Shown: positions 10,550-28,939 of the stretch, piece by piece
Layout of the letters: each line of letters starts with the position of its first letter
Numbering within the stretch: the first letter of the stretch is position 1
Source: a virus
Strand: one strand, 5' to 3'
Virus record (IMG/VR): IMGVR_UViG_3300045135_003099
Coordinates: 1-28,939 of that record
Length of the DNA: 28,939 bases
Notes under the pieces: generated by a model
The model's input: the letters and a program-made list of their open reading frames with translations, nothing else
Database searches by the model: none
Told to the model about the DNA's origin: nothing
Program-made: the position numbers and the translations under genes

Positions 10550-11375
10550 TTTTACTGATAAAATAGTAAATGATACCAACGCTACATTAATTGTCGATGC
10601 TTTAAACCTAGCGTTTCGCTGGAAGCATCAGGGTCGTACAGACTTTCGCTATGACTTTCAGCGCACTGTTGAGAGTTTAGCAAAGTCTTATGATTGTAAA
10701 CGGCTGATTATTGCAGCAGATTGGGGAAGTTCTTCTTACCGAAAGGAAATATGTCCTGACTATAAGCAAAACAGAAAAGATAAGTTTGCAGAGCAGACTG
10801 AAGAAGAAAAAATTGCTTTTGAAGAGTTTTTTGAAGAGTTTGAAGCCTCTCTCGAAGTACTCGCAGAAGATTATTTAGTTCTTCGCTACAAAGGTGTAGA
10901 AGCCGATGATATTGCAGCTCACCTTGTAAAAGAAAAAGAGAAGTATGGGTTAGAGTATATTTGGCTAATCTCAAGCGACCGAGACTGGGATTTGCTAATT
11001 CAGGAGAACGTAGGAAGATTTTCTTATGTTACTCGAAAAGAAGTAAGACTTGATAACTGGAGTGAGCATTATAGTGTAAGTCCAGAAGAGTATATCTCTC
11101 TCAAATGTCTTACAGGCGATAAAGGCGATAATGTTCCTGGCATTCCAGGAATTGGCCCTAAGAGAGCAGAGCAGTTGATTAAAGAATATGGTAGCGCAAT
11201 GGATATTTATGATGCACTACCAATTAATAGTAAATATAAGTATGTACAAGAGTTGAATGCAAACGCAGAGCAGCTTCTTTTAAACTACGAACTTATGGAT
11301 TTAATAGCATATTGCGATGAAGCAATCGGAGCCGAAAACCTGGCTGATATTGAAAGGAAAATGAATGGAAGTTAA
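10539..11375 (+). CDS. 5'-3' exonuclease / flap endonuclease (FEN family)
   Basis: This FEN-type nuclease removes RNA primers and 5' flaps, the function missing from the phage PolA. Metal-binding acids are in the family order: D20 (LIVDALN), D61 (IAADWG), E121-A-D123-D124, D147 and D149 (SSDRDWD), and D194 and D197 (GDKGDN). The helix-3-turn-helix DNA-binding motif GDKGDNVPGIPGIGPKRA spans 193-210. A basic YRKEICPDYKQNR segment at about 67-79 matches the flap-arch region. Its 278 residues match stand-alone phage FENs such as T5 D15 (291) and T4 RNase H (305). The gene overlaps both neighbours by 11 bp. Confidence 0.93.
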   Translation: MAFNFTDKIVNDTNATLIVDALNLAFRWKHQGRTDFRYDFQRTVESLAKSYDCKRLIIAADWGSSSYRKEICPDYKQNRKDKFAEQTEEEKIAFEEFFEEFEASLEVLAEDYLVLRYKGVEADDIAAHLVKEKEKYGLEYIWLISSDRDWDLLIQENVGRFSYVTRKEVRLDNWSEHYSVSPEEYISLKCLTGDKGDNVPGIPGIGPKRAEQLIKEYGSAMDIYDALPINSKYKYVQELNANAEQLLLNYELMDLIAYCDEAIGAENLADIERKMNGS

Positions 11376-13140: not shown

Positions 13141-13141
13141 A

Positions 13142-14104
13142 ATGAGCAATTTATTAACAGAAAGAGAATACTACAAACCTTTTAACTACCCCTGGGCTTT
13201 TGAGCACTACAAGACTCAGCAGCACATGCATTGGCTTCCTGATGAAGTCAATCTTGCTGACGATTTACGAGATTATCGTGAAAAATTAAGTCCTGCAAAC
13301 AAAAAGTTAATTAACTCTTTGTTTACATTTTTTACCCAAGCAGACGTTGATGTCTGCTGTGGGTATGCGAAGCACTATCTACCAACATTTAAGCAACCAG
13401 AAGTGCGTATGATGCTTTCTGCGTTTGCTGCAATGGAGGCAGTGCATCAAGAAGCTTATTCATTACTTCTTGAAACTTTAGGCTTCGGTGACGATGTTTA
13501 CACAAAGTTTATGGAACATAAAGCAATGATGGATAAGCATGAGTATCTTTCTAATTTTGGAATGGATACTCCAATGAACATAGCAAAAACTATGGCAATT
13601 TACTCTGGCTTTACTGAAGGAGTACAACTATTTAGTTCTTTTGCTATTTTGTTAAACTTTCCAAGACATAATCTAATGAAAGGAATGGGGCAGATTGTTA
13701 CTTGGAGTATTCGTGACGAAACCCTTCATGTCGAAGGAATGTCGCAGCTCTTTCGTACTTTTGTTCAAGAAAATCCAGAACTCTGGACAGACGAATTAAA
13801 GTATGAGATCTACTGTGCTGCAGAGCGTACAGTTGAGCTTGAAGATGCCTTTATTGATTTATGTTTTGAAGGTGCTGAAATTCCAGATCTCAAGCCAGAA
13901 GAAGTAAAGGAATATATTCGTTATATTGCTGATCGTCGACTACTTGGTCTTGGAATGAAGAAAATCTTTAAATCTACCGAGAATCCACTGCCTTGGCTAG
14001 ATTATATGTTAAATGCAGTGGAACACACTAACTTTTTTGAGAACAGAGCCACTGAGTATGCACGCGCGAGCACCACTGGCAACTGGCAAGATATATTTAA
14101 ATAA
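13142..14104 (+). CDS. nrdB: Ribonucleotide reductase, class I beta (small) subunit
   Basis: This subunit forms the di-metal/tyrosyl radical that starts catalysis in NrdA. In numbering from the ATG at 13142, E99-x2-H102-x3-Y106 (MEAVHQEAY) gives two ligands and the radical Tyr in the exact E. coli E115/H118/Y122 spacing. A ligand Asp lies in FFTQADVDV, and a second E-x2-H pair in RDETLHVEG. The radical Tyr is therefore kept, unlike Tyr-less class Ic/Ie enzymes. Length is 320 residues. A GTG at 13130 would add four residues, but GAGGG at 13132-13136 is a well-placed ribosome site for the ATG. The C-terminus (ARASTTGNWQDIF) is the usual NrdA-docking tail. Confidence 0.95.
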   Translation: MSNLLTEREYYKPFNYPWAFEHYKTQQHMHWLPDEVNLADDLRDYREKLSPANKKLINSLFTFFTQADVDVCCGYAKHYLPTFKQPEVRMMLSAFAAMEAVHQEAYSLLLETLGFGDDVYTKFMEHKAMMDKHEYLSNFGMDTPMNIAKTMAIYSGFTEGVQLFSSFAILLNFPRHNLMKGMGQIVTWSIRDETLHVEGMSQLFRTFVQENPELWTDELKYEIYCAAERTVELEDAFIDLCFEGAEIPDLKPEEVKEYIRYIADRRLLGLGMKKIFKSTENPLPWLDYMLNAVEHTNFFENRATEYARASTTGNWQDIFK

Positions 14105-14347: not shown

Positions 14348-15629
14348 ATTGAGAAGTACTTGCAGTACCTTGATAATACCCAGTAGCTAGTATATTACTA
14401 CCATCAGATTGATCTGAAATCTCTACTTTTATACTCCCTGTTGTTGTCTGTCCTGGTCCAACAGCCTCCCAATACCAAGCAGCAAGACTAGTTAAAGAAA
14501 TCCACGTATCAGTTGGAGAAGAGCTAGGAGTGCTAACTAGACCACTAGTAACAGTTGCGCGTATCCAATAAGATCCTGCGGGAGGAATATTACTGCTCCA
14601 GTTTTCAAAGAAAACTTGTTGATTTGCAGAAAGAGGAGTTTTATATACAGTACCATCAGGTCTAAACTCCCATATAACAGTTGCAGAAATACCTTCCTGA
14701 TCTATTGTTGAAGATAGATTAGGAGAGCCTGGAGTACCTGAAAGAGTAATTGTATCTAAAGAAACTGTACCATATTCTCCATTTCTAAACTCTCCTACAC
14801 TAATTTGAGAATTAGAAGTAGTATTAATTTTTTCAACTAAATCTCCTCCGTAGAAAAAAGAGATAGGTTTAAATAATGCGTTTGCTTGAGAACTACATCC
14901 AAACCCTATTTGCTGAGGGCCTCTGAACTTTTCCAATAGAGGAACAGTAGAGAGATCGACAGTCAACTGTCCTTTTAATATCGTAGAGCCCGGATCTGTA
15001 GAATAAGCTCTTACTATATCTCCTTCTCTTTCTATTCTTATTGTTGTTCCTTCTGGATAGGTATTCCAGTTGTTAACTCCAACGTAAGGTATTAAAGAGC
15101 TACCATCTAAAATTTTTGTCTGGCTGGCCTGAGCAAAGTTATACCACAGAGACCACGAAGTAATAGTGGTATTTCCATCCTGGTTACGAACAGCAGATAA
15201 AGTATGCTGAACTCCGTTTTCTTCGGTGTAAGCTATTATTACTGCAAGTCTATCGTTATCTGCATTAGTGCTAGTAATTTTTGCCTCCAGCACATAATCA
15301 TCATATTTTTGTGTAGTAGAGCTTATAAACCCTATAAATGTAACGGAATTTATTGTAGACTCTATTCCTCCATCATTATCGTAAATCCAGCTAGTTATTT
15401 CGGAAGAGTTAGCTGGATATACTCCAGTAGTATCATGAGAAATTCTTACCCATGAATTAAATATGGTATCTCCTGCTCTCTGATCTACAACACCTCCGGA
15501 ATAAAAAATATCGGGGTTTAAAAAAGCCCTAACATCTGCATCGTTTAAAGACACAGTAGTTTGGGCACTACCTCCCACTGCTTGATGAATATCATTCAAA
15601 GAAATATTTTGAATAGGTAAAAAAGGCAT
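14346..15629 (-). CDS. Probable tail fiber / receptor-contact protein with lectin-like domain
   Basis: This 427-residue protein is encoded last in the tail operon, right after the gpJ-like gene. Residues 1-40 (NISLNDIHQAVGG, then VSLNDADVRAFLN) match a short helical module repeated at the start of many phage structural proteins (typically SLSDI..EFGG...ISLSEYY). Residues about 50-270 look like a beta-sandwich of the concanavalin/LamG kind, with features such as TFIGFISSTTQKYDDYVLEA, GNTTITSWSLWYN and RIEREGDIVRAY. The C-terminal third resembles Ig-like domains (TPGSPNLSSTIDQEGISATV, VIWEFRPDG). There is no signal peptide or membrane segment. It probably decorates the tail tip and contacts a surface glycan; this is inference from fold-like pattern and position. 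The ATG shares one base with the gpJ stop. Confidence 0.68.
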   Translation of the reverse strand: MPFLPIQNISLNDIHQAVGGSAQTTVSLNDADVRAFLNPDIFYSGGVVDQRAGDTIFNSWVRISHDTTGVYPANSSEITSWIYDNDGGIESTINSVTFIGFISSTTQKYDDYVLEAKITSTNADNDRLAVIIAYTEENGVQHTLSAVRNQDGNTTITSWSLWYNFAQASQTKILDGSSLIPYVGVNNWNTYPEGTTIRIEREGDIVRAYSTDPGSTILKGQLTVDLSTVPLLEKFRGPQQIGFGCSSQANALFKPISFFYGGDLVEKINTTSNSQISVGEFRNGEYGTVSLDTITLSGTPGSPNLSSTIDQEGISATVIWEFRPDGTVYKTPLSANQQVFFENWSSNIPPAGSYWIRATVTSGLVSTPSSSPTDTWISLTSLAAWYWEAVGPGQTTTGSIKVEISDQSDGSNILATGYYQGTASTSQ

Positions 15630-18600
15630 TATTTATTCTCTAATTCTTTAACCCTAGCTGAAAGTTCTTTTATACTTTCTATCAGTAATGGTATTAAGCT
15701 TTCATATCTTACGGCTAGAGTTCCATCCTGTCTTTCTGCTACTGCTTCAGGTAAAATTTCCTGAACCTGTTGAGCAATAACACCAACGTCATCTTTCCGA
15801 ACAAAATAATCGTCTTCTCCTCCTCTCTCCTCGATAACACTATCTTTCCACTCAAAAGTAACTCCGTCTAGGGTTTCTAGTTTTTGTAGGGCATTTGGAA
15901 TATTTATTATATTTTCTTTTAAGTTAATATCAGAAGTATAATATGCAGTGATATTTCCTATTGCTCTAACATCACCGCTCTCTTGTATACTAAATATGCA
16001 ATTAGCTAAGCTAATATCTGTTGCAGTACTTGATTTGTTTGTACTAATACCAAAATATGAAGTAGTGCCAGAATTATCTGAATCTAACAAAAACTGAAAA
16101 CCTCTTACCGAAGACGCTAATACGTCAGAAGCACTATCAGAAGCCCCAGAAAACGCTAGATTTAAAAAGTTCCCTGTAGTAGAAGAGTTTAGGTTATAAG
16201 TAGTAATATCTACGTCAGCGTCTTTAGTATGAAAATTACTTAAGTCAGGTGGAGTATAAGTAAATACACCTGTAGTATCATTATATGCAATAGCCCCGCT
16301 ACCACTAGCTGTATTAGGAGCTCCAACAGATAGATCAGTTAATGCAATACCTCCTCCTAGACCGCTTAAGTCAGGTGGGGTATAAGTAAATACACCTGTA
16401 GTATCATTATATGCAATAGCTCCACTACCACTAGCTGTATTAGGATCTCCAACAGATAGATCAGTTAATGCAATACCTCCGGCCTGAGCTTCGTTAACCC
16501 AGGTGCCGTCTCTGTAAACAATAACTTGACCATTGCTTAAACTATTAGTAGTAACATTATCCAGGTCTCCAAGATTTAAGCTAGGGTATGTTATAGCTTC
16601 GTTAACCCAAGTACCGTCTCTGTAAACAATAACTTGTCCATTGTTTAAAGCATTAGTAGTAACATTACCCAGGTCTCCTAGATTAGTTGGAATAGTAGGT
16701 TTATCTGTTAAATCAGTGTATGAACCTGAAAATAATGTAGGTTTATCTGTTAAATCATTATACGAACCTGAAAAACCTCCTGACTGAGCTTCATTAACCC
16801 AGGTCCCATCTCTATAAACAATAACTTGACCATTGCTTAAACTATTAGTAGTAACATTATCCAGGTCTCCTAGATTTAAGCTAGGGTATGTTATTGATTC
16901 ATTAACCCAGGTACCATTTTGGTATACCAGAACTTGTCCATTATTTAAACTATTAGTAGAAACATTATTTAAATCCCCAATATTATATGGAATAACTACA
17001 GTAGCATTCTCCCATTTATTAAGTGTAGCATTATATGAGAATAATTGGTTATTTTGTGGGTTACTAATAGTAACATCACTAAGGTCTGTTAATTTTTCAG
17101 CAATTGTAGGTTTATTTGTTAGATCTGTATAAGAACCTGAAAACAGCGTAGGTAGGTTACTCAAATCATTATAGTTACCAGAAAAAGGAGTATATGGAGA
17201 CCATAGTTTAGTAGTGTCATCATATGAGATACTTTGTCCAGTTGTAGGTGCTACAGTAGCTAAGTCTACGTCCGATAACTCTCCGAGTTTAAAATCTTGA
17301 ATCAGTTTTTTAATGGTGAATAACTTAGTTATAGTTTCTCCCTCGTAAGATGCTACTATTGAAAATGCTTCTTCGTTTGTTATCCAATCATCTTGCTGAG
17401 CTTCTGATACCGAAATTTCACCAAAACTATCTATTGTAAGAGTTAAGCCGTTTTTAGTTTGTGTATTCGTGCCTGTATCTCCTACGGTAAACGTAACAAC
17501 TCCGAGAGAGCTTAAGTAGCCTACACCCTGGTAAACATTAAATACACTAGAAACTATGCTTAAATCATAATCAGAGCCATCAAAAGCTGCGTTTACAAAC
17601 TGAGTTTCATTTGTAAGACTTCCTGTCAAACTTGGAGTTCCATCTCTTACCTTTTCAATAGATAAGGAGGCTACTTTAGTTTTTGTAGCATTATTAGGAT
17701 CAAGCTGCTCTCTAATTTCTACCTGAAAAACTAAAGGCTCAGCAGAGTATACATCAGAGGTTAAATTTAAAGATTTCTCATACTCTCCAGCACCTGTGAA
17801 TACAAACACACTATCTTCGGCTTCATCTACTTGAGTAAAACCTGCTCCTGTTATCTTAAATTCTGGAGAAGAAAAACCTGTAGCAATTGCTTTTATAGAA
17901 AACGCTGCACTACTTGTAAGTTCATTATATCCATTATATTTAATTTGTGGAGTCGCACTTATCAGACTCGCACTACGAATATTATCAAGCAGAGAAGGAT
18001 CGACTGTTAAATAAGAAACAAGAGTGGTCGGTAGACCTGGTTTTTTTGTAATTTTAGCTACTATAGTATCTTCTTCAAATTCAAATCTAAGTGTATTTAA
18101 ATAAAGGTTCTGACTATCAATAGGCTGGTTAAAGCTTCTATCAATTACTGCTATTGTATCTGATATAATTGAAAGAATAGTACATACATAATAGTATCCA
18201 TAACCAGAATCAATTTTTATCTTATCTCGAATACGCAAGTCATTCAAGAAAGAAGTACCAGTTCCTCTTAAAAAAGTACTATTTGAATATAAAGTTACTG
18301 TCCCTGCTACCTGAGTAAAAGCATTTTGTGGATCATTACCACTAGAAATAACATCGTACCAGTAATTCCTATGAGTATTTTGGACCGCTTCAAAGTATTT
18401 TATTGCTCTAAACTGCTGTAAGTCAACATCAAATAAAATGTAGTAACTAACATTATCTAAAAGAAAAGGACTAGAAAGATCCAAAGATTCGCTAGTTAAA
18501 TCTATAGTAAAAGCAGGATCAGCCGCGGGGCTTAGTGTAGTTTCAGGTTTTTCAAACCTTAAAACATTTTCATCAGTAATCATTAATGAGGAACTGGAAA

Positions 18601-21600
18601 CGCCTCCGAGTCCAATACCCTCTGACTCTCTTGGAATATCTAAAGAAAACGGATCATCGACTTCTATATTTAAATAAGTAAAAATAGACTTCTTCTTAGT
18701 GCTATTTATAGTTCTAACACCTACCCTGTAGACATCTTCTGGTACTTTAACAAAGGTATATGTAGTAACATCAGGGCCTACAAAAATTGGAGACGGATAT
18801 CCTGGAATATCGTGAGATATTTCATAACCACTTACATATTCATATTCTGTATTATTAGCATTTCTAGGCTTAAGCCATCCTATTTGTATTTCTTCCCCTA
18901 TTGTTTTATAGTCAGAGATACTAATTGGAAAAACACTTTTAGGGTTTGGAACATCATTTAATGAAGTAATTGCAGGAAATACAGTATCAGGAACATAAAG
19001 AGAAAATTCCTCATCAATTGCCGCAAACTTTTCATTATAATGTTCTACTGCACTAATTGAGTATACTTCTTTAGATTCTTCTTTAATACTAAGTATTTTA
19101 TAATCTTTTGCTGATTCATCAAGCAGTCCAGCAGTAGAATATTTTTTAATAGTCCATACACTAGAAGGCGGTGGGGATAAGCTCAAGGCTAAAGATAACG
19201 ATACTTGGGTAACTGTCTCTGTAGTTGTAACATCTATTTGCCTAGTTTCTACCCGAGTGTAAGGTGCCCAATAGATAGATACAGGATTACCAAAATCATC
19301 TTCTATAGATGAAGCCTCTTCCTCAGATGTGAATAAAGTAGAAGGTAATGGCTCAGCAGAAGTATATGTAACTCCTCCTATAACAGCTTGTTTCTGAGAT
19401 AAAAAAGCCGTGTTTTCTGGTATTAATACACTCAGTTCATAAGTATATTGAGGATCTAAATTAATAGGACGATCTAATACTAACTGATCTACAGTTGCGT
19501 TTATAAGTCTACCACTAAGCTCAATCTTATATTTTGCAGCATCTTGTACTCTAATAATATCTCCAGGATTTAAAAACGCAGCATTTAATGATGTACTAAA
19601 ATTAATTATATTTGTTTGATTAATAGCTGTCCATAACTTCCATCGACCATATCGAGTTGCTTGTCCTTCAGAAGTAGCTCCAAAAGCAACAACATTTTGC
19701 TGTATAATTTTTCCAGTTTCTACTATACTTTCTCTGTCCTCTACAATTAAGGGCTCTAAAGCATAGTTTGCATCTGGATTATTCCAGCTTACTATTACCT
19801 GATTTACTCTGGTTTTTTCTCCAGTACTTTCATAGACAAATTCGCCGTCAATAACATTACTGCGCGAAAAAGTATATACCGGATCTTTAGGACGATCCAT
19901 AGAAGGATAAATCTTTCCCTCACTCCAGTATAGTATAGTTACAAAAGCACTAGCAATATCTTTCAATACCTTATAGACATCTGTTGCTTTAGTTAAATAA
20001 ACATTAAGAGTAAATCTAGGCTCTACGCCTCCTTTGCCGTCAGGCACTAATTCATCGCAGTATCTTGCTATTCTATATAAAGCGTATTTATCTATATCGT
20101 CTTCAGACACCCAAGATCCTATTCCGTACCTATTATTAGTTACTATATCATAAAAAATCCAAGCAGGATTATTTGTATATACTAATTCAGTTCTAAAACT
20201 ACCGTCCCAAAACCCATCATAAATAGGAGTGTCTGAACCTGCTTCTTCGCGGGTTGTATAGTTAGAAGGAACTTTTACTTTTATTCCTCTACAGTGGTAA
20301 GTACGCGTAGGAGGGGCAGAAAAATCTTTTGAAGAAAAAGAGATAGAAGCATATGCACTATGAGGGTAAGATAAAGGCTCTTTTATAACAGAGGAAATCG
20401 AACTTAACGTGCTAGCTGCCTGTATAGTATATTTACTTTTAGTATTCCGTAGATTTCTTTGAACCCCACGCCCAGAATCTCGGGTTAGTCGAGTTATAAT
20501 TACCTCAAAGTCTGTAAAGGGCTTAAAAGGCTCTAAGTTAATTACTTCTTCTATAATTATAGCGCCTTCTGTTCTGTACGAGTGTTTAACTGCTGGATTA
20601 AGAGTAACCAAAGACTCAACAGCTCCTCTAAATAGTTTTAATTCTATTTTATACCCTGCTGTACCGTTTCCATGCCTTCCTGTTTTGTTATTTGGACAAA
20701 TCAAAGAAGAGTATGTAAAAGTTAGTCTTATTTCATCTATTTGTGGTACTTGAGCGGCAGTTAAACCAAAACCATTACCAGAAGTCGCAGATAGATAAAC
20801 AGGATACTCACCAAGCAGTGCGTTTGCCCCTGTAGGGTCCTCTTCTACAATATCAAGATATTGCTGACTTTTAGTGTCAATAAATTTTAACTGCTGAGCC
20901 GAAAAACCGGAGCCAGCAGAAATAGAAGTAGCACTAGTCCCTTCGTAATTTGTTATTGGAGGCTGTTTTTCTGTACCTACACGAAATTCTGTATATACAC
21001 TTTCATACTTAGACTGCTGTACAGTGTCTGATACGGATGTGTCTGTATAAAAACTACCTCCAGAGAGAGTATTATAAGTACCTGTAGGACCTACATAGGG
21101 TCTTGTTAAGGTAATATTTGTTGTCCCCCACCCTGCAGATACTTCAAGAAAAGTATCTACATGAAATTCACAACTGTTACCAGCATCTTTTATAAAGCTT
21201 CTATAAATAGCATCTGACCCAGAAGCGATTATAAATTGACAAGTATCTCCACTTACTGAGTATAATTCCCCAGTAAGAGTTTCTTTAGTAAAACTATTAA
21301 CTAGTCTTATAGAGATAGAATCATCCGTCATGTAAGAAGCAAGAAAGCCAGCCGGTGCAGATACTTCTATACATGGATAGGCGGGAGATCTAGGGCCTGT
21401 TGAAAGGGAGCCAATCGCTACAGTAACATTAGTAGTTACAAGGTCTAAGATAGTAATTATTTGCCTTGCCGAATTTATGTACTCAGAGTTTGTAACATAT
21501 ACGCTAGATTCCGGCAGAGGTGAGCTTGTAGTAGCACTTGAAGAGTTATTCGATATAGTTATAGATAAATTAGAAAGGGTTTTAGTAGTACTATCAGATA

Positions 21601-21787
21601 CAGCGGCTATTCTGTCGTCATTTAAGTATATTGACGCAATACCGTCTACTAAGCCTTCTATCGGGCCTTCCGATATTAAGTCTACTATATTTATAGTCTG
21701 CTGGGTTTGAAAATCCATTATCTTAAGTATAGTAGAATTCTGTGTTGAAGCTATCTGCTGATCTCTTACTGTATTTGATTTAGCCAT
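15629..21787 (-). CDS. Central tail tip / host-specificity protein, lambda gpJ-like, with S74 chaperone domain
   Basis: This 2052-residue protein forms the end of the tail and probably binds the receptor. The N-terminus has the gpJ hallmark INIVDLISEGPIEGLVDGIA (33-52). A conserved tail-tip core follows at about 610-800 (DVYKVLKDIASAFVTILYWSEGK and nearby). Fibronectin/Ig-like regions come after (about 1010-1110 and 1300-1560). Residues about 1545-1850 are repetitive: four LGDLxNVxTNxLxNGQVxVYxxGTWVNE units, four GSYxDLxxKPT units and two ALTDLSVGxPNTASG units. The C-terminal 102 residues are a Peptidase_S74 intramolecular chaperone: S1952 and K1957 (TSDINLKENI) form the self-cleavage dyad, followed by GVIAQQVQEILPEAV and a terminal coiled coil. 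Cleavage would leave about 1951 residues. Lambda gpJ is 1132 residues. Confidence 0.93.
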   Translation of the reverse strand: MAKSNTVRDQQIASTQNSTILKIMDFQTQQTINIVDLISEGPIEGLVDGIASIYLNDDRIAAVSDSTTKTLSNLSITISNNSSSATTSSPLPESSVYVTNSEYINSARQIITILDLVTTNVTVAIGSLSTGPRSPAYPCIEVSAPAGFLASYMTDDSISIRLVNSFTKETLTGELYSVSGDTCQFIIASGSDAIYRSFIKDAGNSCEFHVDTFLEVSAGWGTTNITLTRPYVGPTGTYNTLSGGSFYTDTSVSDTVQQSKYESVYTEFRVGTEKQPPITNYEGTSATSISAGSGFSAQQLKFIDTKSQQYLDIVEEDPTGANALLGEYPVYLSATSGNGFGLTAAQVPQIDEIRLTFTYSSLICPNNKTGRHGNGTAGYKIELKLFRGAVESLVTLNPAVKHSYRTEGAIIIEEVINLEPFKPFTDFEVIITRLTRDSGRGVQRNLRNTKSKYTIQAASTLSSISSVIKEPLSYPHSAYASISFSSKDFSAPPTRTYHCRGIKVKVPSNYTTREEAGSDTPIYDGFWDGSFRTELVYTNNPAWIFYDIVTNNRYGIGSWVSEDDIDKYALYRIARYCDELVPDGKGGVEPRFTLNVYLTKATDVYKVLKDIASAFVTILYWSEGKIYPSMDRPKDPVYTFSRSNVIDGEFVYESTGEKTRVNQVIVSWNNPDANYALEPLIVEDRESIVETGKIIQQNVVAFGATSEGQATRYGRWKLWTAINQTNIINFSTSLNAAFLNPGDIIRVQDAAKYKIELSGRLINATVDQLVLDRPINLDPQYTYELSVLIPENTAFLSQKQAVIGGVTYTSAEPLPSTLFTSEEEASSIEDDFGNPVSIYWAPYTRVETRQIDVTTTETVTQVSLSLALSLSPPPSSVWTIKKYSTAGLLDESAKDYKILSIKEESKEVYSISAVEHYNEKFAAIDEEFSLYVPDTVFPAITSLNDVPNPKSVFPISISDYKTIGEEIQIGWLKPRNANNTEYEYVSGYEISHDIPGYPSPIFVGPDVTTYTFVKVPEDVYRVGVRTINSTKKKSIFTYLNIEVDDPFSLDIPRESEGIGLGGVSSSSLMITDENVLRFEKPETTLSPAADPAFTIDLTSESLDLSSPFLLDNVSYYILFDVDLQQFRAIKYFEAVQNTHRNYWYDVISSGNDPQNAFTQVAGTVTLYSNSTFLRGTGTSFLNDLRIRDKIKIDSGYGYYYVCTILSIISDTIAVIDRSFNQPIDSQNLYLNTLRFEFEEDTIVAKITKKPGLPTTLVSYLTVDPSLLDNIRSASLISATPQIKYNGYNELTSSAAFSIKAIATGFSSPEFKITGAGFTQVDEAEDSVFVFTGAGEYEKSLNLTSDVYSAEPLVFQVEIREQLDPNNATKTKVASLSIEKVRDGTPSLTGSLTNETQFVNAAFDGSDYDLSIVSSVFNVYQGVGYLSSLGVVTFTVGDTGTNTQTKNGLTLTIDSFGEISVSEAQQDDWITNEEAFSIVASYEGETITKLFTIKKLIQDFKLGELSDVDLATVAPTTGQSISYDDTTKLWSPYTPFSGNYNDLSNLPTLFSGSYTDLTNKPTIAEKLTDLSDVTISNPQNNQLFSYNATLNKWENATVVIPYNIGDLNNVSTNSLNNGQVLVYQNGTWVNESITYPSLNLGDLDNVTTNSLSNGQVIVYRDGTWVNEAQSGGFSGSYNDLTDKPTLFSGSYTDLTDKPTIPTNLGDLGNVTTNALNNGQVIVYRDGTWVNEAITYPSLNLGDLDNVTTNSLSNGQVIVYRDGTWVNEAQAGGIALTDLSVGDPNTASGSGAIAYNDTTGVFTYTPPDLSGLGGGIALTDLSVGAPNTASGSGAIAYNDTTGVFTYTPPDLSNFHTKDADVDITTYNLNSSTTGNFLNLAFSGASDSASDVLASSVRGFQFLLDSDNSGTTSYFGISTNKSSTATDISLANCIFSIQESGDVRAIGNITAYYTSDINLKENIINIPNALQKLETLDGVTFEWKDSVIEERGGEDDYFVRKDDVGVIAQQVQEILPEAVAERQDGTLAVRYESLIPLLIESIKELSARVKELENK
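16239..16480 (-). repeat. Tandem 116-bp direct repeat inside gpJ
   Basis: Two copies, 16239-16354 and 16365-16480, are offset by 126 bp and differ at only four positions that I could count. Each encodes the ALTDLSVG..NTASGSGAIAYNDTTGVFTYTPPDL unit. The near-identity at DNA level points to a recent duplication or ongoing recombination in this receptor-proximal part of the tail-tip protein. Confidence 0.85.
16486..16985 (-). repeat. Four GTWVNE-unit repeats inside gpJ
   Basis: Units lie at about 16486-16594, 16595-16685, 16786-16894 and 16895-16985. The first and third are spaced exactly 300 bp apart and match at about 104 of 109 bases, so a larger block containing two units each appears duplicated. 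Between the blocks sit two GSYxDLTDKPT units (about 16690-16780). Each unit encodes LGDLxNVxTNxLxNGQVxVY then GTWVNE. Confidence 0.82.
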
Positions 21788-21801: not shown

Positions 21802-22443
21802 TTACTGCTGATTAGCTGGTGGTCTTTTATTGTAGATATTTCCGTCTCTATCTACAACTACATTGTTTTGATTTTGAATTCCCGTACTTGCTGCGGAACC
21901 AGAAATAACAGATAAACTTATAGGTCTTCCAGGAACTCTTAACTCTCCATATAATACTGGAACAGGGTCTCCTTCTATAATATTTTGTTCTGACCCATTA
22001 AATAAATACGACTGAGGCGAATTTACATCTTGTACAGGGTCGGGAGCTAATAGATCTTGCATTCCTGTGCTCATTAAATTAATACCAATACTAGTCAAAA
22101 ACTGAAGCCCTGGAACTGTAGCTCCCAAGAAGAATAAAATAGCTCCGGCCCCTAGCTTTAAAAGTGCTTTACCCTTACCAGCAGCTCCAGATACGCTGTG
22201 TCCAAAATAAATATCTCCTTTCTTTAATGGAGCTGCTAAATCTTTTTCAGTTTTTAGCTCAGTATTCTCTGCAAAAAATTCGAAAGATATATTATTTTCA
22301 TGGCAGAAAAGTATATATTCTTTAAAATCAGGAAAATTAGCCTCTAAAAGCTTAAAAACATCTTGCGATCTTGATACGTTTATAGTAAGAACCTCTCCGT
22401 ATCTTTTTGCAAGTTCTCCTGTAAGATAAAGCTTACGCTTCAT
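21802..22443 (-). CDS. Tail assembly protein, lambda gpI-like
   Basis: This 213-residue protein matches the gpI family in layout. The N-terminal domain (1-83) resembles a ubiquitin-like beta-grasp (RKLYLTGELAKRYG, then KKGDIYFGHSV). A glycine-rich hydrophobic segment follows at about 85-128 (GAGAILFFLGATVPGLQFLT, then GINLMSTGMQDLLAPDP). Next comes the conserved NIIEGDPVPVLYGELRVPGRPISLSV block (154-179), and a short disordered tail ends in KRPPANQQ. In lambda gpI works with gpJ, gpK and gpL to build the tail tip and is needed at an early assembly step. The gene sits exactly where lambda has I, between K and J, and its start overlaps the gpK-like gene by 11 bp. The hydrophobic segment could be membrane-active, but that is inference. 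Confidence 0.88.
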   Translation of the reverse strand: MKRKLYLTGELAKRYGEVLTINVSRSQDVFKLLEANFPDFKEYILFCHENNISFEFFAENTELKTEKDLAAPLKKGDIYFGHSVSGAAGKGKALLKLGAGAILFFLGATVPGLQFLTSIGINLMSTGMQDLLAPDPVQDVNSPQSYLFNGSEQNIIEGDPVPVLYGELRVPGRPISLSVISGSAASTGIQNQNNVVVDRDGNIYNKRPPANQQ

Positions 22444-23164
22444 ATCTATATACTCCTGTTAAGTACTTATGCCAGAAAGGATAAATACTTTCTGAGCATG
22501 ATAATCTATTAATAGCATGATGAAATATAGTATCCTCCCCTATATAGACAGCACAGTGGTTAGGTACATTGCTTTCTACTGAAAATATTAAAACATCGTT
22601 TATTTCTGGCATATTATTTTCTACTTTTTTATGGTTCCATTTTTTAATATTATCTTCTGAAAAATAATTTAATCCTTTTGATTCCCAATCTTCCATGAAA
22701 TTATCTCTCGGAGGTATTAATATATCTTTTGTATTTAAATAATCTTTTGTGGCTTCAAAACAATCTTGTATTCCAAATATGTATTCTCTTCCATACAAGT
22801 AAGGTACTTGACTTTCTGGAGCCAAAAAATACATAGACATATCTGGAAAGCTAAAAATATAAAATGGTATTTTTAAATTGTAACAACTTTCTATATCTAC
22901 TAAAGAAGGCTTACAACTTTCATTTATATGGCTATGTACTATTCCTACTATATTGCCTAGTTTTTTAGTTTGTATTAGTTCTGAAGGTTCTATTTCAAAT
23001 TGAGTATGTGGAGACTTCGATATATTTCTGCAGGCTTTCCAATACAATTTTCCTTTTATTGTATATAATAAACCACATCCTTCATTAGGAAATTCGAGTT
23101 TAAAATGCTCAAAAATATCAGGTATTACTTTACTTAAATTTAACACTTCCGGGAAACGCTCCAA
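22433..23164 (-). CDS. Tail tip assembly protein, lambda gpK-like (JAMM + NlpC/P60)
   Basis: This 243-residue two-domain protein matches lambda gpK. The N-terminal JAMM/MPN metalloprotease-like domain has E28 and the full H77-x-H79-x7-S87-x2-D90 motif. The C-terminal NlpC/P60 cysteine peptidase domain has C135 (GIQDCFEATKDY), H203 (PNHCAVYIG) and a third polar residue at H215/H216. The NlpC part would cut peptidoglycan peptide links during DNA entry or tail maturation; the JAMM role in tails is unproven. The start at 23164 is a TTG and overlaps the gpL-like gene by 35 bp; a GTG at codon 7 is the alternative, with GGAG 12 bases upstream. No ATG lies near the N-terminus. Confidence 0.92.
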   Translation of the reverse strand: MERFPEVLNLSKVIPDIFEHFKLEFPNEGCGLLYTIKGKLYWKACRNISKSPHTQFEIEPSELIQTKKLGNIVGIVHSHINESCKPSLVDIESCYNLKIPFYIFSFPDMSMYFLAPESQVPYLYGREYIFGIQDCFEATKDYLNTKDILIPPRDNFMEDWESKGLNYFSEDNIKKWNHKKVENNMPEINDVLIFSVESNVPNHCAVYIGEDTIFHHAINRLSCSESIYPFWHKYLTGVYRYEA

Positions 23165-24491
23165 ATGGTAGTTGTATAGCAGTATTTTTAGAGCTGGAAG
23201 GCAGCCCGTTGCTAATTGTAGCTTGAAATCTAGATTTGCACGACTTTAAAGTTTTTCCGCAGTAGTCTACTCTTTTCCAGTATATTGAATTTTTTCCAGG
23301 AGTCTTACTAGTATCAAAGGTATGTGATATAAGTACCCGCCAAATTTTATTCTCATGCCTAACATAGCTAGATCTATTTGGATCTTGGGAATTGACACTA
23401 AAACTAGCACTATCGGAAGAAGACGCGAAAGAAAGAGTAGTGCCTATAGAAAGTACAGGTACTTCAACTCCTCCGCTTACAATAATTGTATTACTATCGA
23501 CTACATCAACTATAGTTCCAGAAACCTTGCTGGTAGTTAAAACAGTCATTCCTACAGATAGGTTTGTAGTATTTGTTAAATTTATGGTAGTATCTCCTAG
23601 CGTGCTCACTAGGCTAACAGTTTTTTCAACTGTCTGTTGGTCTGTTCTAAGCCAATCTTCCCACACTCGTACTTCTTGCCATAATAGACTACTAGTAGGA
23701 ATATTTCCTAAATTGGTTCCACCTTCAGATCTAAAGTACCTGCCATTATAAACTACATAGGCATCTTCTGGGTAACTTTTAGTCGAGCTATATGTAGATG
23801 CTAGTCCGTCAAAAACTTTTTTATTTACTAAAGGTTCATCATTAAGATTGAAATATATTTGATATTCCCCCTGACCATATTTTATAGTATTATCAGTACT
23901 CCAAGGACAGCCAGATATGTTTTTTTCTTCTTTTCCTTGGTAAATCCAAGAGCAAAATTTTCCTATTATTATTCTTGAAGGTACCTGTATATTTGATAGA
24001 TCAAACACAGCAGCTAATTCAAAAGCAACCTGAGAACTTGTTTCTACTGATACTCTATCAATAATATACTTTTTAACCGGAAACTCGATTTTATTTGGAT
24101 CAGACCCTCCAATTAAATACTTTTCTAAGGTTTGTCGAACTATTACTGTAGTACCTATTAAATCTTCAAATTCAAAATATGTACCTGTAGTTTGTGACAA
24201 GGTGTATTGAAATATAGGCTCGACATTTCCTACAGTGAGGGTTGGCCTGCCTATGGGGCCATCTGAAGATTGATCGACACCTTTTAAAATTATTGGTAGC
24301 GCATAGTATGTATTAATTTTTGAGTTATCCTGATATGAATAAAATTTTATCTCATTATAGTTATTGTCTAACCCAGGATGAAAACATATAGGATCTTGCC
24401 CTTCTTCTAAGTATAGTTCATATAGCTCTACTAGGCCTGACCCTACTTCGGTAGACTGTAAATCAGTTGCTATTATGTTATTTGTAGTCAT
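23130..24491 (-). CDS. Minor tail protein, lambda gpL-like, with large insertion
   Basis: This tail-tip protein links the tube to gpJ and the assembly factors. Residues 1-180 show the gpL pattern: VELYELYLE, FHPG, GRPTLTVGNV (residues 81-90) and FPVKKYIIDRVS. Lambda gpL binds a [4Fe-4S] cluster through four cysteines, and here candidates are C180 (KFCSWIY), C195 (SGCPWS), C411 (DYCGKTL) and C418 (KSCKSRF). The last pair has the same 7-residue spacing as in lambda. Between C195 and C411 lies an insertion of about 200 residues absent from lambda (23-residue gap there). It includes YPEDAYVVYNGRYFRSEGG followed by TNLGNIPTSSLLWQEV, resembling CBM5/12-type carbohydrate-binding modules, and a second weaker copy before C411. 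At 453 residues it is twice lambda gpL (232). Confidence 0.87.
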   Translation of the reverse strand: MTTNNIIATDLQSTEVGSGLVELYELYLEEGQDPICFHPGLDNNYNEIKFYSYQDNSKINTYYALPIILKGVDQSSDGPIGRPTLTVGNVEPIFQYTLSQTTGTYFEFEDLIGTTVIVRQTLEKYLIGGSDPNKIEFPVKKYIIDRVSVETSSQVAFELAAVFDLSNIQVPSRIIIGKFCSWIYQGKEEKNISGCPWSTDNTIKYGQGEYQIYFNLNDEPLVNKKVFDGLASTYSSTKSYPEDAYVVYNGRYFRSEGGTNLGNIPTSSLLWQEVRVWEDWLRTDQQTVEKTVSLVSTLGDTTINLTNTTNLSVGMTVLTTSKVSGTIVDVVDSNTIIVSGGVEVPVLSIGTTLSFASSSDSASFSVNSQDPNRSSYVRHENKIWRVLISHTFDTSKTPGKNSIYWKRVDYCGKTLKSCKSRFQATISNGLPSSSKNTAIQLPFGAFPGSVKFK

Positions 24492-24498
24492 TTAATTC

Positions 24499-26061
24499 TC
24501 ACTTTGCTTTTGTATCTACTAAAGGGTCGTCAATCGGCGGAGGTGTAGAAGGGTCATTTGCTGGCGCTGTTGTAGTAGACTCTTCTCCCTCTATAATATT
24601 AAATGTACCAGTAGCAACTTGACTGCCCGAAGGATTAAATACATCTATTCGTATGCTTTCTCCTGGATCTTCTCCGTCATTTCCTACTACAAAAAAGGAA
24701 AAATACCCTATAAAAGTTCCAGGATTGTCTGTGTCTTCTAGTACATAAAAATTATTGTATATAGATAAAATATCGTCACTAGTTGCACCTCCTAAGTATG
24801 CAAACTGAAAACTATATAAACCGATTGGCACATTACTTCCAGTACTTTCTAGTTTAAATGCTACGGCCTGTCCTTCTTTTACCTCTGGTGTATCATGTAA
24901 GCTTAGAGTATATGTGGGCGCTACATAAGCAGGCTCCCCTAAAAAAGCTATACTATTCGTTGAAGAAGCGCTATTAGACGTATTTTGTTTTTGTCTAATA
25001 GTTGTAGTAAAACCTGCATTAAAAGGGCCTTCTCCTTGGCTTAAAGAAGCATTTAAAGATACCTCAACTCCACCCACTGGAAAATCCTTATAGTCAGGAG
25101 TTGTATAGGCAGGGCTTACAGTAAAACTAATTCTAGAGTCTATTATACCTTCCTCTACTAATATTTCAAAATCAGAAAAGTTGAAATCTGATGTATCACT
25201 TATCCAATATCCTATAATTTGACCAGTGGCAGAGCTAAATAAATTTGCTGAACTTGAGGCAAATATAGACCCATCTGCTCTGTAAATATACTTAATATAC
25301 TCTGCCGATGCCGTATCATTTTGTACGGTAAAACTAGTATTATCAAGTAGAGGGGCTACTTCCTTAAGTATAAAAGAAATGTCTGCTTTTCCGTTGTCAA
25401 GAGAAACAAACAAGGTTTCTTGAGGCTCAATGGTATTATCTTGTAAAATAGAAAAAGTTAAATATGCTCTACTATTAGTAACGGTAAATAAGCCTTGAAG
25501 CGGCGTATCTATATCTTCAGGCTGAACTCCTGATATTGTATACGGTATTTCAGTGTCGTTTTGAACACCTGTAGTTCTCAGCTCTATAGTAATAGAGTCT
25601 CCCTCTGAAGGAGAAGTAGCGCTAGAGTATAAAGAATATGTAGGAGCCGGAACAATAGGTACCCCAGCAAATTCTAAGGTACTTGATATAACTTTCTTAA
25701 AAGTACCTTCTATAGTTACAGTTTCTTTATTTACATAGGTTAGGTTATAGCTGTCGCATACTACTGATAGAGTTCTTTCTTTAGATACTTCATTAGTATC
25801 TCGTACAGTAAAGCTAAAAGACTCTACACCATTTTTTGAGTCAAGAAAAGCAGAAATAGCTAAAGCTTCTTCTATGTCTCTATTTTCAAATACAACCTGG
25901 TACTCTTCTTCTATACTATTTATACCATCTTCATATCTTTGTTCCCAGATAGTACCTAAGTCGTCTTTTTTGACCCTATGAACTATAGTACCTTTTAGGC
26001 TCTTATCTGGAAGAATATATCGAGGGTCAAGGTCAGTCTGAATATTAAAACCTAAAGCCAT
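24499..26061 (-). CDS. gpM-like minor tail protein with Calx-beta/Ig-like extensions
   Basis: The first 130 residues are a gpM-type domain, paralogous to the two genes upstream: MALGFNIQTDLDPRYILPDK start, EDGINSIEEEYQV, and a C-terminal VVCDSYNLTY strand. Lambda gpM is about 109 residues; this protein continues to 520. Residues 139-232 (PTYSLYSSATSPSEGDSITI through LDNGKADISF) and about 380-495 (PTYTLSLHDTPEVKEGQAVA onward) look like two Calx-beta or Ig-like repeats. A beta-rich linker region lies between, and a Thr/Pro/Asp-rich tail (STTTAPANDPSTPPPIDD) ends it. The additions probably project from the tail tip and may bind host surfaces; this is inference. It starts one base into the stop of the preceding paralog (TAATG). 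Confidence 0.82.
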   Translation of the reverse strand: MALGFNIQTDLDPRYILPDKSLKGTIVHRVKKDDLGTIWEQRYEDGINSIEEEYQVVFENRDIEEALAISAFLDSKNGVESFSFTVRDTNEVSKERTLSVVCDSYNLTYVNKETVTIEGTFKKVISSTLEFAGVPIVPAPTYSLYSSATSPSEGDSITIELRTTGVQNDTEIPYTISGVQPEDIDTPLQGLFTVTNSRAYLTFSILQDNTIEPQETLFVSLDNGKADISFILKEVAPLLDNTSFTVQNDTASAEYIKYIYRADGSIFASSSANLFSSATGQIIGYWISDTSDFNFSDFEILVEEGIIDSRISFTVSPAYTTPDYKDFPVGGVEVSLNASLSQGEGPFNAGFTTTIRQKQNTSNSASSTNSIAFLGEPAYVAPTYTLSLHDTPEVKEGQAVAFKLESTGSNVPIGLYSFQFAYLGGATSDDILSIYNNFYVLEDTDNPGTFIGYFSFFVVGNDGEDPGESIRIDVFNPSGSQVATGTFNIIEGEESTTTAPANDPSTPPPIDDPLVDTKAK

Positions 26062-26504
26062 TAACCTACTCCTATATATCCTTGTAAAACATAAGTATCT
26101 GGTGCAACATACAACAGTATCTCTTCTACTGGTTCTGGGTTATCATAAATTCTTTTAAAAACTGCTCTACATGTAAATAAATTATGTCTCTCTTGTATAA
26201 TATCATATGTATCGCATACAACAGTAATAGGATCGGAACCCTCTACTGGGAAAAACTCAAACTTATCTAAGCCTTTTCTTAGCTCAAAAAATCTTTTAAT
26301 CGCGTGAATTTCTTCATAACTTCTATTTAGAAAACTTAAAGAATAAACTTCGTCTATACTATTTATTCCATCTTTTACTTTTAGTCTATACCCGTCTCCA
26401 AACTTAGAGTCATACAAATTTGAAGTTACAGTTTTAGATAATTTTCTATCTGGACAAATATATCTAGGATCTGCAAAAGTTCTAATATTAAATCCTAGAG
26501 GCAT
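26061..26504 (-). CDS. gpM-like minor tail protein (second paralog)
   Basis: This 147-residue protein is the middle of three gpM-like genes. It shares MPLGFNIRT, ADPRYICPDRKL, FGDGYRLKVKDGINSIDE, YEEIHAIKRFFE and VVCDTYDI with its neighbours, and adds a short C-terminal tail (EPVEEILLYVAPDTYVLQGY). Phage_min_tail (gpM) proteins in lambda act with gpL at the tail-tip end of the tape measure. Three copies probably occupy different positions in the tip. The stop overlaps the next ATG by one base. Confidence 0.85.
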   Translation of the reverse strand: MPLGFNIRTFADPRYICPDRKLSKTVTSNLYDSKFGDGYRLKVKDGINSIDEVYSLSFLNRSYEEIHAIKRFFELRKGLDKFEFFPVEGSDPITVVCDTYDIIQERHNLFTCRAVFKRIYDNPEPVEEILLYVAPDTYVLQGYIGVG

Positions 26505-26505
26505 A

Positions 26506-26874
26506 CTAGTTTCTCACCTGTCTAAAAGAGGCTATGCAGCCGGAAGCTATTCTATTGGTGTAAATAACGTTATATTCTTCACAAATTACTGAAACTACCT
26601 CTAAAGGATCATCTCTTAAAGTATATTCAAAAGAGTACACCCCTTTGTTAGTTTCAAAAAAGCTTATCACTCTGTCTATCTCTTCTGCAGTTCTATTTAC
26701 AAGAGTTATTTCATAAGTTTCTTTTCTCGAGTAAACTCCGTCTTTTATTGTTTGTCCATAGCCATCTCCAAAGTTTACAGATAAAACTCTTGGCTGGCTA
26801 ACTATTTTTAAGTTTTTATCTGGACATATAACCTCTGGAGCTTCTTCGGTGCCTATATTAAATCCTAAAGCCAT
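26506..26874 (-). CDS. gpM-like minor tail protein (first paralog)
   Basis: At 122 residues this is the most lambda-gpM-like in size and the closest to the tape measure, where lambda M lies. Shared blocks with the two following genes are MALGFNIGT, PEVICPDKNLK, NFGDGYGQTIKDGVYSRKE, TAEEIDRVISFFE and VICEEYNVIY. It is probably the true gpM equivalent. The gaps to both neighbours are one or two bases. Confidence 0.87.
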   Translation of the reverse strand: MALGFNIGTEEAPEVICPDKNLKIVSQPRVLSVNFGDGYGQTIKDGVYSRKETYEITLVNRTAEEIDRVISFFETNKGVYSFEYTLRDDPLEVVSVICEEYNVIYTNRIASGCIASFRQVRN

Positions 26875-26876
26875 AA

Positions 26877-28939
26877 CTAACTAGCTCCATAAGGACTTAA
26901 AGTACCACCAGCTCTTCTCTGATTTTGGATTTCTTTTCTAACAGCAATGCTTATAGCTCTTCCGAACTCATTTGCATCGCCTTCTGAACTTGAGCTCTCT
27001 ACCCCTCGATTGTCAATACTTACATTAACTACGACATTATTATTTTCACCAGTACTACCTCTTAACTCTACAGGTATTTTTCCATTTCCGGGTAATGGTA
27101 CTACAGCTTCTTTTCCATGCATCATTACAGGGTAACCAGCATCTGGTCCTTTAAGGACCCCGCCTACTGCCATCTGGGGCATAATACCGCCATATCTAGC
27201 ACTTCCACCACTACCACCAAAGAGTGAAAATACCCATTCAGCCGCTTCAAGAAGTTTAGACATTCCCTCACTTCCTCCTGCAGAATCCCCGTTGATGCCT
27301 CCACCTGCAGTTAATATTTTAAATATGCTACTAAAATCAAATCCGCCATCTTCGCCAGCCATGCCCATTAAAGTTTGAATCATGCCCATAATACCATTTT
27401 GGCCGCCTCCTTCTCCGAGACTTTCTATAGCTTTTACTATTTTTTTCGTAGAGTCTTCACTAGTTTTTGCGACTGTTTTTGCTATTTTTATAGAAGAGTC
27501 TTCTACTGTTCTATCGGATTTTACTGAAGTGTCATATACAGCACTTCCGGTTTTTTTAGTAGCCTCTAAGATTTCTGTCCTTCTTGTATTTGCTATTATT
27601 TCATCTCGTCTGTCTAGTTCTTCGTCTTTATTAACAACTGCAGGAGCTGATGTAATAGTAATACCGCTGTCAGTAATTCCTTTATCAGAACAAGAGCAAG
27701 AAGCACATGCTTCTTCAATAGCTTTTTTCAATCTATCAGCGCCTCTATCAAAAGCAGCATCTAAATGTGCTGAAAAAACTATTGCATTTACTTTATTTGA
27801 AGTCTGAGACTGTGTAGCAGCAGTAGTATTTGCTGTAGTTATAGCAGTACTTACCGTAGCTGCTCCTACTTGGTGTGCAGCTTGTATCTGTTGAGGCATA
27901 TTTTTAGGAGCAAATTTTCCTAGGCCTGGAATCTTAGATAAAGCTGTCATAATACTATCGGTCATGTCTTTCGCAATGACGTCAGCAATTGAATCTACTA
28001 CGCCTTCAAAAATATTTCTAAAGGCGTCCTTAAAGCTTGTTTGCTTACCAGTAATTAAGTCCTTAATGTTAGACTGAAGTCCAGATTCTAGTGAATTTTT
28101 TAGTGCTTGCTGCAAAAGGTAAGCCTGGCTTGTTTGTGCAACTAAAACTTCCTTTTGTGCTTCCAATTCTTGAGTTTTTAGCTGTTGTAAAGAAAGATCT
28201 TCTTGAAGTTCAGTTTTTAAGTCTCCAGAAGAGTTTGCTATTTTTTCTCGTAGTTCTTGCTCTTTTCGTAGAGATTCAGAAATATCTCTGTCTGCTCCTG
28301 CTATTTTAAAACGAAGCTCAAGTTTTTCTTTTTGATTATTGGTTAAGCCGATTGAAGCTCTTGTTAGTTTTATACTATCAAGCAATTCTTGCTTTTGCAG
28401 ACCACGAAGAACTTTTTTGGTTCTTAAATTTGAAGCCTCAAATACTTCTTGCTGTTCAGCTAATTTTAATTCTGCTTGCGAAAGATTCAACTCTGCTCTT
28501 GCTAGCTCTACTGCTTGTTGTTTATCTTCGTTATTTTTATTAATAGCAAGATTTGCATCCGCTAAAGTCTCATTATATAATTGAGTTTGCTCTGTTATTT
28601 TTCTTTGTAAATCTTCTTTCTTCTGAGTAGCATCAAAAAGACTTCTTTCTAAAGGAGCACTTGTTAAAAGAGCCTGTTTTTCAGACACAGTAGCTTGAAG
28701 ACTATCAATCTTTGCTTTGTTTTTAATTTTATTTAGCGCGGCCTGAAATTCTAGCTCTTTTGTTTGAGCCTCTAAAATTTTTAACTCTGCTTCTGCAATT
28801 TTCTTGTTATCTTCATTTATAATTCTTTGTTGTTCTATCTGCTCCGTAACGACCCCGTTATTTTTAGCTATTTTTTCTTTAATGACGTTTTCATCATCAA
28901 CTATTTTTTGTATTTCTGCTTGTTTTTTTGCAATTGCTG
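26877..28939 (-). CDS. Tail tape-measure protein (partial, N-terminus beyond window)
   Basis: This protein sets tail length and probably helps DNA pass the cell envelope, like lambda gpH. The frame stays open from 28939 to the stop at 26877 (687 complete codons including the stop), so the N-terminal part lies outside the window. The visible N-terminal half is a long Lys/Glu/Gln/Ala coiled coil (for example AELNLSQAELKLAEQQE). A middle region rich in Ser/Thr/Ala follows with an ACASCSC cysteine cluster. The C-terminal Gly-rich part has the tape-measure hallmark GGVLKGPDAGYPVMMHGKEA followed by VVPLPGNGKIPV. An internal GTG at 28688 is not a credible start because the coiled coil continues upstream of it. 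Its place immediately before the gpM paralogs fits lambda order H-M. Confidence 0.88.
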   Translation of the reverse strand, partial: AIAKKQAEIQKIVDDENVIKEKIAKNNGVVTEQIEQQRIINEDNKKIAEAELKILEAQTKELEFQAALNKIKNKAKIDSLQATVSEKQALLTSAPLERSLFDATQKKEDLQRKITEQTQLYNETLADANLAINKNNEDKQQAVELARAELNLSQAELKLAEQQEVFEASNLRTKKVLRGLQKQELLDSIKLTRASIGLTNNQKEKLELRFKIAGADRDISESLRKEQELREKIANSSGDLKTELQEDLSLQQLKTQELEAQKEVLVAQTSQAYLLQQALKNSLESGLQSNIKDLITGKQTSFKDAFRNIFEGVVDSIADVIAKDMTDSIMTALSKIPGLGKFAPKNMPQQIQAAHQVGAATVSTAITTANTTAATQSQTSNKVNAIVFSAHLDAAFDRGADRLKKAIEEACASCSCSDKGITDSGITITSAPAVVNKDEELDRRDEIIANTRRTEILEATKKTGSAVYDTSVKSDRTVEDSSIKIAKTVAKTSEDSTKKIVKAIESLGEGGGQNGIMGMIQTLMGMAGEDGGFDFSSIFKILTAGGGINGDSAGGSEGMSKLLEAAEWVFSLFGGSGGSARYGGIMPQMAVGGVLKGPDAGYPVMMHGKEAVVPLPGNGKIPVELRGSTGENNNVVVNVSIDNRGVESSSSEGDANEFGRAISIAVRKEIQNQRRAGGTLSPYGAS

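Follow-up and report, generated by a model that had tools for sequence, protein, structure and literature searches.

CBM5/12-like modules between the cysteine pairs of a gpL-like tail-tip hub protein

The IMG/VR record IMGVR_UViG_3300045135_003099, whose entire 28,939 bases form the stretch analysed here (the window), probably belongs to a phage of bacteria and encodes a gpL-like protein whose two cysteine pairs lie far apart. This raises the question of what fills the space between the pairs and whether all four cysteines can still hold one Fe-S cluster. Judged by sequence, the protein is a homologue of lambda gpL and a predicted lambda-like tail-tip hub protein: it scored 79.4 bits on Pfam Phage_tail_L (PF05100), where the cut-off is 25, and hit the 'minor tail protein' family phrog_18 with an E-value of 4.4e-35. 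In the structure model, the HDI beta-sandwich superposed on lambda gpL 8iyk_L (Z 14.1, 151 residues, rmsd 3.5), and VIA-align placed model residues 1-169 on residues 1-162 of 8iyk_L, the lambda gpL alignment covering these residues only. Moreover, Pfam and PHROGs analyses recovered the lambda-like tail-tip order gpM-gpL-gpK-gpI-gpJ on the minus strand (Table 1).

Several other features of the record were observed. The three gpM-like ORFs in a row (122, 147 and 520 aa, the third with a long C-terminal extension) occur in the window alone, the other sources having one each (240 sources with a match, window included; many loci are short). The long ORF at 26877-28937 on the minus strand is open at the record end; a PHROGs search with a 603-aa part of it gave no match, and by position it is perhaps the tape measure gene. 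Adjoining genes for the large and small subunits of ribonucleotide reductase lie on the plus strand at 11365-14104, after primase, polymerase, helicase and SbcC-like genes.

The translation of the gpL gene contains cysteines at residues 36, 180, 195, 411 and 418. The two pairs line up with the Cys columns of short-loop gpL proteins, in an alignment whose rows, like those of the 41-member family alignment, were chosen via the Cys motif, so that invariance is partly by construction; all 41 family members matched Phage_tail_L at E <=0.01. The spacing is x14 (C180-C195), x215 (C195-C411) and x6 (C411-C418), compared with x8, x22 and x6 in lambda gpL (C173/C182/C205/C212, translated from NC_001416, with an extra Cys208 within the last gap). 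A preliminary description of this DNA had proposed that an insertion of about 200 residues separates the Fe-S cysteine pairs, and this is confirmed. Its figures of 216 against 23 in lambda were differences between positions, the residues between the pairs numbering 215 and 22, but the contrast itself stands; its interval, 23258-23952, leaves C418 just outside.

Table 1. Features of the gpL-like gene and of the neighbouring tail genes in the window.
Feature	Coordinates	Strand	Basis
gpL-like tail-tip hub gene, 453 aa	23130..24491	-	Pfam, PHROGs, fold match
HDI ring domain, N-terminal, about residues 1-165	23997..24491	-	VIA-align to 8iyk_L
Cys180, putative first cluster ligand	23952..23954	-	translation; invariant column, Cys-motif-chosen rows
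Cys195, putative second cluster ligand	23907..23909	-	translation; alignment column
Inserted stretch, about residues 223-408 (186 aa), 'FNLNDEPLV' strand to 'DYCGKTLKSC' helix	23268..23825	-	hhalign; repeats absent in short-loop gpL
CBM5/12-like repeat 1, residues 234-274	23670..23792	-	repeat HMM 32.7 bits; pLDDT 95-97
Orphan module, about residues 290-366 (~77), nested in N-terminal part of repeat 2	23394..23624	-	low pLDDT; no relative among 9,689 ORFs
CBM5/12-like repeat 2, residues 374-408, HMM positions 10-41	23268..23372	-	repeat HMM 44.0 bits
Cys411, putative third cluster ligand	23259..23261	-	translation; alignment column
Cys418, putative fourth cluster ligand	23238..23240	-	translation; alignment column
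C-terminal 'LPFGAFPGS' motif, residues 441-449	23145..23171	-	conserved within family
gpK-like gene (JAB + NlpC/P60), overlaps gpL end	22433..23164	-	Pfam, PHROGs
gpI-like tail assembly gene	21802..22443	-	phrog_32 E 2.7e-24
gpJ-like central fibre gene, 2052 aa, C-terminal S74 chaperone	15629..21787	-	phrog_31 E 2.1e-141; Peptidase_S74
gpM-like genes, three in a row: 26506-26874, 26061-26504, 24499-26061	24499..26874	-	Phage_min_tail, each above cut-off

To draw the limits of the insert, the window family was compared by hhalign with a set of six gpL proteins from named phages, of which five have the short loop. The alignment ran through Cys2 and the 'YFDxNDxPV' strand and stopped at residue 222, and homology returned at the Cys3-Cys4 helix, as weak second domains and with the short-loop forms. 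The insert thus replaces the end of a near-constant 22-residue loop. Within it, the repeat HMM, a profile of 41 positions grown from long-loop relatives, and the alignments gave separate modules, which rules out a single inserted domain. The CBM5/12-like motif and second copy named in the preliminary description are both real, but the second, taken there to be the weaker, is the higher-scoring one. Repeat 2 starts at HMM position 10, the orphan module separating it from the expected site of its first nine positions, and on this sequence evidence the orphan module has entered the second repeat. In searches for relatives of the orphan module, a pattern search for related loci gave 98 pattern matches with none confirmed, PHROGs gave a best E of 0.13, and phmmer over 9,689 ORFs of the fetched loci and the window returned only the module itself; Pfam YajC (E 0.0033) was rejected at 17.7 bits against a cut-off of 28.2. 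The orphan module and the tether at residues 164-179 were poorly predicted, with low pLDDT. A structure model built from 92 sequences was better than one built from 41, in which the Fe-S region was poor.

Both window copies are CBM5/12-like in sequence. Of the two, Pfam CBM_5_12 (PF02839) touched only copy 2 and stayed below its cut-off (18.1 bits for the whole protein and 20.8 for the segment, against 26.2; E 0.00039 for the repeat 2 segment), but the cut-off was exceeded in the relative L031 (30.5 bits) and 26 of the 41 family-alignment members matched at E <=0.01. Among 177,635 PDB sequences, the top match of the repeat profile was the chitin-binding domain of ChiA1 (1ed7, E 5.6e-6), which relates the repeats to CBM5/12 at the sequence level. 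The family profile also matched chitin deacetylases of Vibrio (3wx7, 4ny2) in their tandem CBMs, with E-values of about 8e-7, and model residues 231-408 aligned to 3wx7 over both copies (89 residues across two domains, with Z 7.2 and an rmsd of 10.3). Foldseek aligned 43-47 columns to chitinase CBMs with an rmsd of about 1-2 and E-values above 0.01, and gpL-like and ChiA1_BD-named proteins were among the matches of a viral predicted-structure search. The phage repeats differ from the ChiA1 domain at W687, two residues before the conserved Pro, which we take to be essential for chitin binding: none of 199 repeats has Trp at the equivalent position, where Tyr or His occurs in 6 and the commonest residues are N (76), Q (28) and K (25). 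Aromatic residues are retained at repeat positions 1 (W/Y), 20 (W/Y/F) and 38 (W), although these may be core residues.

To place the window protein, gpL ORFs were gathered from IMG/VR, from named phages and from genome_contigs, which comprises bacterial and archaeal genomes and MAGs. Of 307 loci, 306 yielded a gpL ORF; both Cys pairs were parsed in 290 of these, and 16 stayed unparsed. The shares given here describe sets found by search and sampled unevenly rather than population frequencies, and in these sets the loop is exactly 22 residues in 94 of the 101 short-loop proteins. Among 42 distinct genome_contigs proteins, 33 have a loop of 22, the others having 21 (1), 23 (4), 97 (1), 99 (2) and 146 (1). 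Relatives of cyanophage KBS-S-2A likewise have 22 in 57 of 59 distinct proteins; one exception (L289, 257) is a parsing error and actually has 22. In the window's virus group, by contrast with these short loops, 125 distinct proteins have loops of 71-193 residues; the window loop of 215 is the longest repeat-bearing one in the set, and L134, its nearest kin on the HDI tree, has just 131.

The repeats go with long loops more often than chance would give. At a domain E <0.05, the repeat HMM found a copy in 0 of 101 short-loop proteins and at least one in-loop copy in 129 of 131 long-loop proteins, the sole copy being weak in six (E 0.0026 to 0.028). Counted over 232 proteins, 103 contain no in-loop copy (the 101 short-loop proteins, with loops of 21-31, and the long-loop S-CBS4 and L198), 41 contain one (loops 71-169), 82 two (123-215) and six three (183-193). 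One of those counted with three, L050, on inspection of its sequence has a repeat split by a nested insert. Because some loops of 145-169 residues show one detectable copy, a diverged first module is likely in them. The idea of an insert peculiar to the window was rejected, as relatives carry the same kind of insert. Since related viruses have one, two or three modules at the same spot, the loop between the Cys pairs looks like a natural site for displaying sticky modules on the virus tip. The repeats were found in 154 of the 9,689 ORFs, and apart from the listed gpL proteins these were only the gpL of the window and an L155 fragment; no other tail gene carried them, in loci whose flanks are often 2-6 kb and whose fibre genes are often cut.

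Two gpL proteins with unusual layouts were noted in the same set. L122 has a CBM-like repeat after Cys4 (ORF residues 316-354), outside the loop, in addition to the in-loop one. L210:4845-6917, from a MAG labelled Flavobacteriaceae, is a 691-residue gpL ORF whose Cys pairs enclose a CBM-like repeat and in which 336 residues separate the Cys4 motif from PFGGF.

Cultured phages were searched by tblastn, a method that is weak for repeats so short. Four records, with the annotations hypothetical or tail fibre, matched the window insert (E 0.03 to 10), and the tandem-repeat-plus-Cys segment of L026 matched none at E 0.01. L003 and L096 matched 1103 and 1268 records, respectively, none of them over 80% of the query. 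L198 matched 1287 records, three of which, all Rhizobium phages, covered over 80% of the query; as about 700 bases are matched for about 305 residues, the alignment to these phages probably spans the loop with a gap. A literature search, mostly short of full texts, found no description of CBM5/12 repeats in gpL.

Modules also differ between close relatives. The gpL genes of L009:5998-7434 and L015:4119-5228 are 96-98% identical in aligned DNA, but L009 has a ~50-residue module in the HDI domain and another in the repeat 1 hairpin, both in-frame, and L015 has neither; in the latter case the module replaces the hairpin tip relative to L015. This module type accounts for 38 stretches in 19 gpL ORFs and occurs in no other ORF of the set. 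In six KBS-S-2A relatives (L232, L233, L295, L298, L302 and L304), a ~65-residue insert was seen between the Cys4 helix and the PFGGF motif, the best segment being 88-92% identical to KBS-S-2A gpL. On an HDI-only tree of 120 rows, the presence of the CBM insert requires 3 state changes. In a test with 62 of the 120 rows, however, placing the CBM bearers in one clade was not rejected (p-AU 0.615), and we therefore do not claim separate origins.

The cysteine pairs are kept whatever the loop contains, over loops from 22 to more than 200 residues. In a check made without a Cys filter on 240 distinct gpL ORFs, although the scan patterns behind it partly included the Cys1 context, the C-terminal end motif was present in 227, of which 224 fitted a loose pattern covering the two pairs. 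The three failures were L213 and L227, short ORFs with the cysteines visible in the sequence, and L155, whose frame ends at Cys1; as a second short ORF there carries the CBM-like repeat, the L155 gpL looks frameshifted or misassembled. Of the 13 ORFs without the end motif, seven end in a PFGAY variant with the second pair, five are cut short and one (L208) is out of frame. Solved structures provide a precedent for a cluster that spans such an insert. In cryo-EM structures of the RcGTA hub (PMC7296036) and the R4C hub (PMC10276861), the cited sections describe a cluster domain whose two segments flank an oligosaccharide-binding domain, to which the authors' limits give 82 residues, with four cysteines holding the cluster; in the R4C hub these are Cys 147/157/244/251 (x9-x86-x6). 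R4C is a distant relative, since the window family profile aligned to its hub over just 18 columns around Cys3-Cys4 with 6% probability, but the HDI fold of the model matched R4C 8gtc_P (Z 10.4, 129 residues). Model residues 6-450 also aligned to the T1 hub 9l9p_J, with an rmsd of 10.0.

As RcGTA and R4C show the same layout with a different domain and a cluster bound by four cysteines, the reading that the insert is looped out of the Fe-S fold is well supported by analogy. This part of the preliminary description holds, but the insertion is three modules rather than one domain. The architecture itself, a gpL hub with a modular insert between kept Cys pairs, is highly probable as read from the alignments, and by comparison with the solved hubs the four cysteines very likely bind one shared [4Fe-4S] cluster. 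By sequence, two CBM5/12-like modules have taken the place of the short loop between the pairs, and the orphan module has entered the second. We propose that both Cys pairs close on one [4Fe-4S] cluster, which would staple the ends of the loop, as the solved relatives suggest, so that modules could come and go or be swapped while the hub stays intact. With its three hub copies, the tip would expose six CBM-like modules on its outer face. At the weakest step of the proposal, these modules may act as weak multivalent adhesins for a surface polysaccharide, and adhesion might then ease the particle's passage through capsule or O-antigen until the gpJ fibre meets its receptor. Glycan adhesion by the insert is plausible and slightly favoured, though putative, and the explanation as a whole, namely a gpL hub with a CBM-like array looped out on a stapled cluster and serving as glycan adhesins, has in our estimate a probability of roughly 0.6.

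A broader and distinctly tentative idea is that in siphophage tail tips the Fe-S cluster serves as a structural staple, holding both ends of a surface display loop in which adhesin modules are inserted, repeated and exchanged. The paper on the lambda tail tip states that the functions of the gpL cluster are still to be characterised (PMC10721106, cited in part). Under the staple idea, the clearest example would come from the window's virus group, in which a single site holds nested modules and one to three CBM-like repeats, while RcGTA, R4C and S-CBS4 would be parallels that use other domains. Cys pairs that are kept around loops of 22 to over 200 residues make the staple role of the cluster directly testable, and if the inserts bind glycans, they would constitute a modular host-range element in uncultivated viruses.

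Three other readings were weighed against this explanation. The main rival keeps the intact Fe-S domain with its looped-out insert as described, but takes the insert to be a non-binding decoration or spacer that serves stability or tip shape. The absence of the chitin-binding Trp of ChiA1 from all 199 repeats, which mostly have N, Q or K there, speaks for it, as do the orphan module within repeat 2 and the L009 module in the repeat 1 hairpin, since modules tolerated at these places suggest that a strict binding geometry is not needed. Variable copy number and module turnover, however, are what is expected of host-facing parts, conserved aromatic residues remain, even if perhaps as core residues, and the cognate domains of RcGTA and R4C are named oligosaccharide-binding by the authors in the sections cited (PMC7296036, PMC10276861); on balance we regard a mere decoration as unlikely. 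The polar residues that mostly stand in place of the sugar-binding Trp would also suit an insert that binds protein, for instance a receptor in the outer membrane, a pilus or one of the phage's own side-fibres. In lambda this location is exposed, the cluster domain of gpL being placed at the outer surface in the cited part of the tail-tip paper (PMC10721106). The repeat sequence matches mainly chitin-binding modules, however, to which model residues 231-408 also align, and protein binding appears improbable.

The remaining alternative concerns the cluster, in that each Cys pair might form a separate disulfide or metal site. The first pair is indeed spaced x14 in the window against x8 in lambda, but this spacing also varies from x8 to x18 among the short-loop gpL proteins listed, the second pair being x6 or x7, and R4C and RcGTA are described as keeping one cluster across their 82-residue inserted domains (PMC10276861, PMC7296036). 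Separate sites are therefore very improbable.

Lambda gpL (PF05100; PDB 8iyk_L) has the HDI domain, the four cysteines in two pairs and the M-L-K-I-J gene order of the window, but its 22-residue loop contains no CBM-like repeat, whereas the window loop of 215 residues does. Siphophages, best known in this respect from Gram-positive hosts, also have CBMs within ring or hub proteins of the tail tip, namely in evolved Dit and Tal, and some of these CBMs were shown to bind host cells; Dit and Tal are proteins other than gpL, and the cited sections mention no Fe-S site for them (PMC7291167). The upper baseplate protein gp50 of JBD30 resembles the window protein in having four putative metal-binding cysteines (Cys147/156/238/245) with a long gap between the pairs, of 81 residues against 215 in the window, according to the part of the report cited (PMC11445458).

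Synechococcus phage S-CBS4 gp036 is a gpL with a large insert at the same site (x8-x260-x6). This insert is unrelated to that of the window: the HMM found no CBM repeat in it, and its flanks, read from the sequence, are helical and coiled-coil-like. Proteins of the S-CBS4 type with an insert of ~260 residues were seen in L168:2375-3772 and in L308-L328, L332 and L333, and 23 of 27 loci, S-CBS4's own record included, match over the whole protein. A likeness in layout is offered by the RcGTA hub g13 and the R4C hub, in which the Fe-S domain is split by an inserted domain as in the window, although they have one such domain and the window has a tandem CBM5/12-like array. Pfam places the R4C hub in different families, PF09931 and PF09356, neither of which the window gpL matches at E up to 1. 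With a domain between the Cys pairs in both, the window gpL works like an R4C-type hub without being a member of its families. The insert architecture therefore has a structural precedent, and it is the stepwise repeat number and the nested modules that make the window's virus group interesting.
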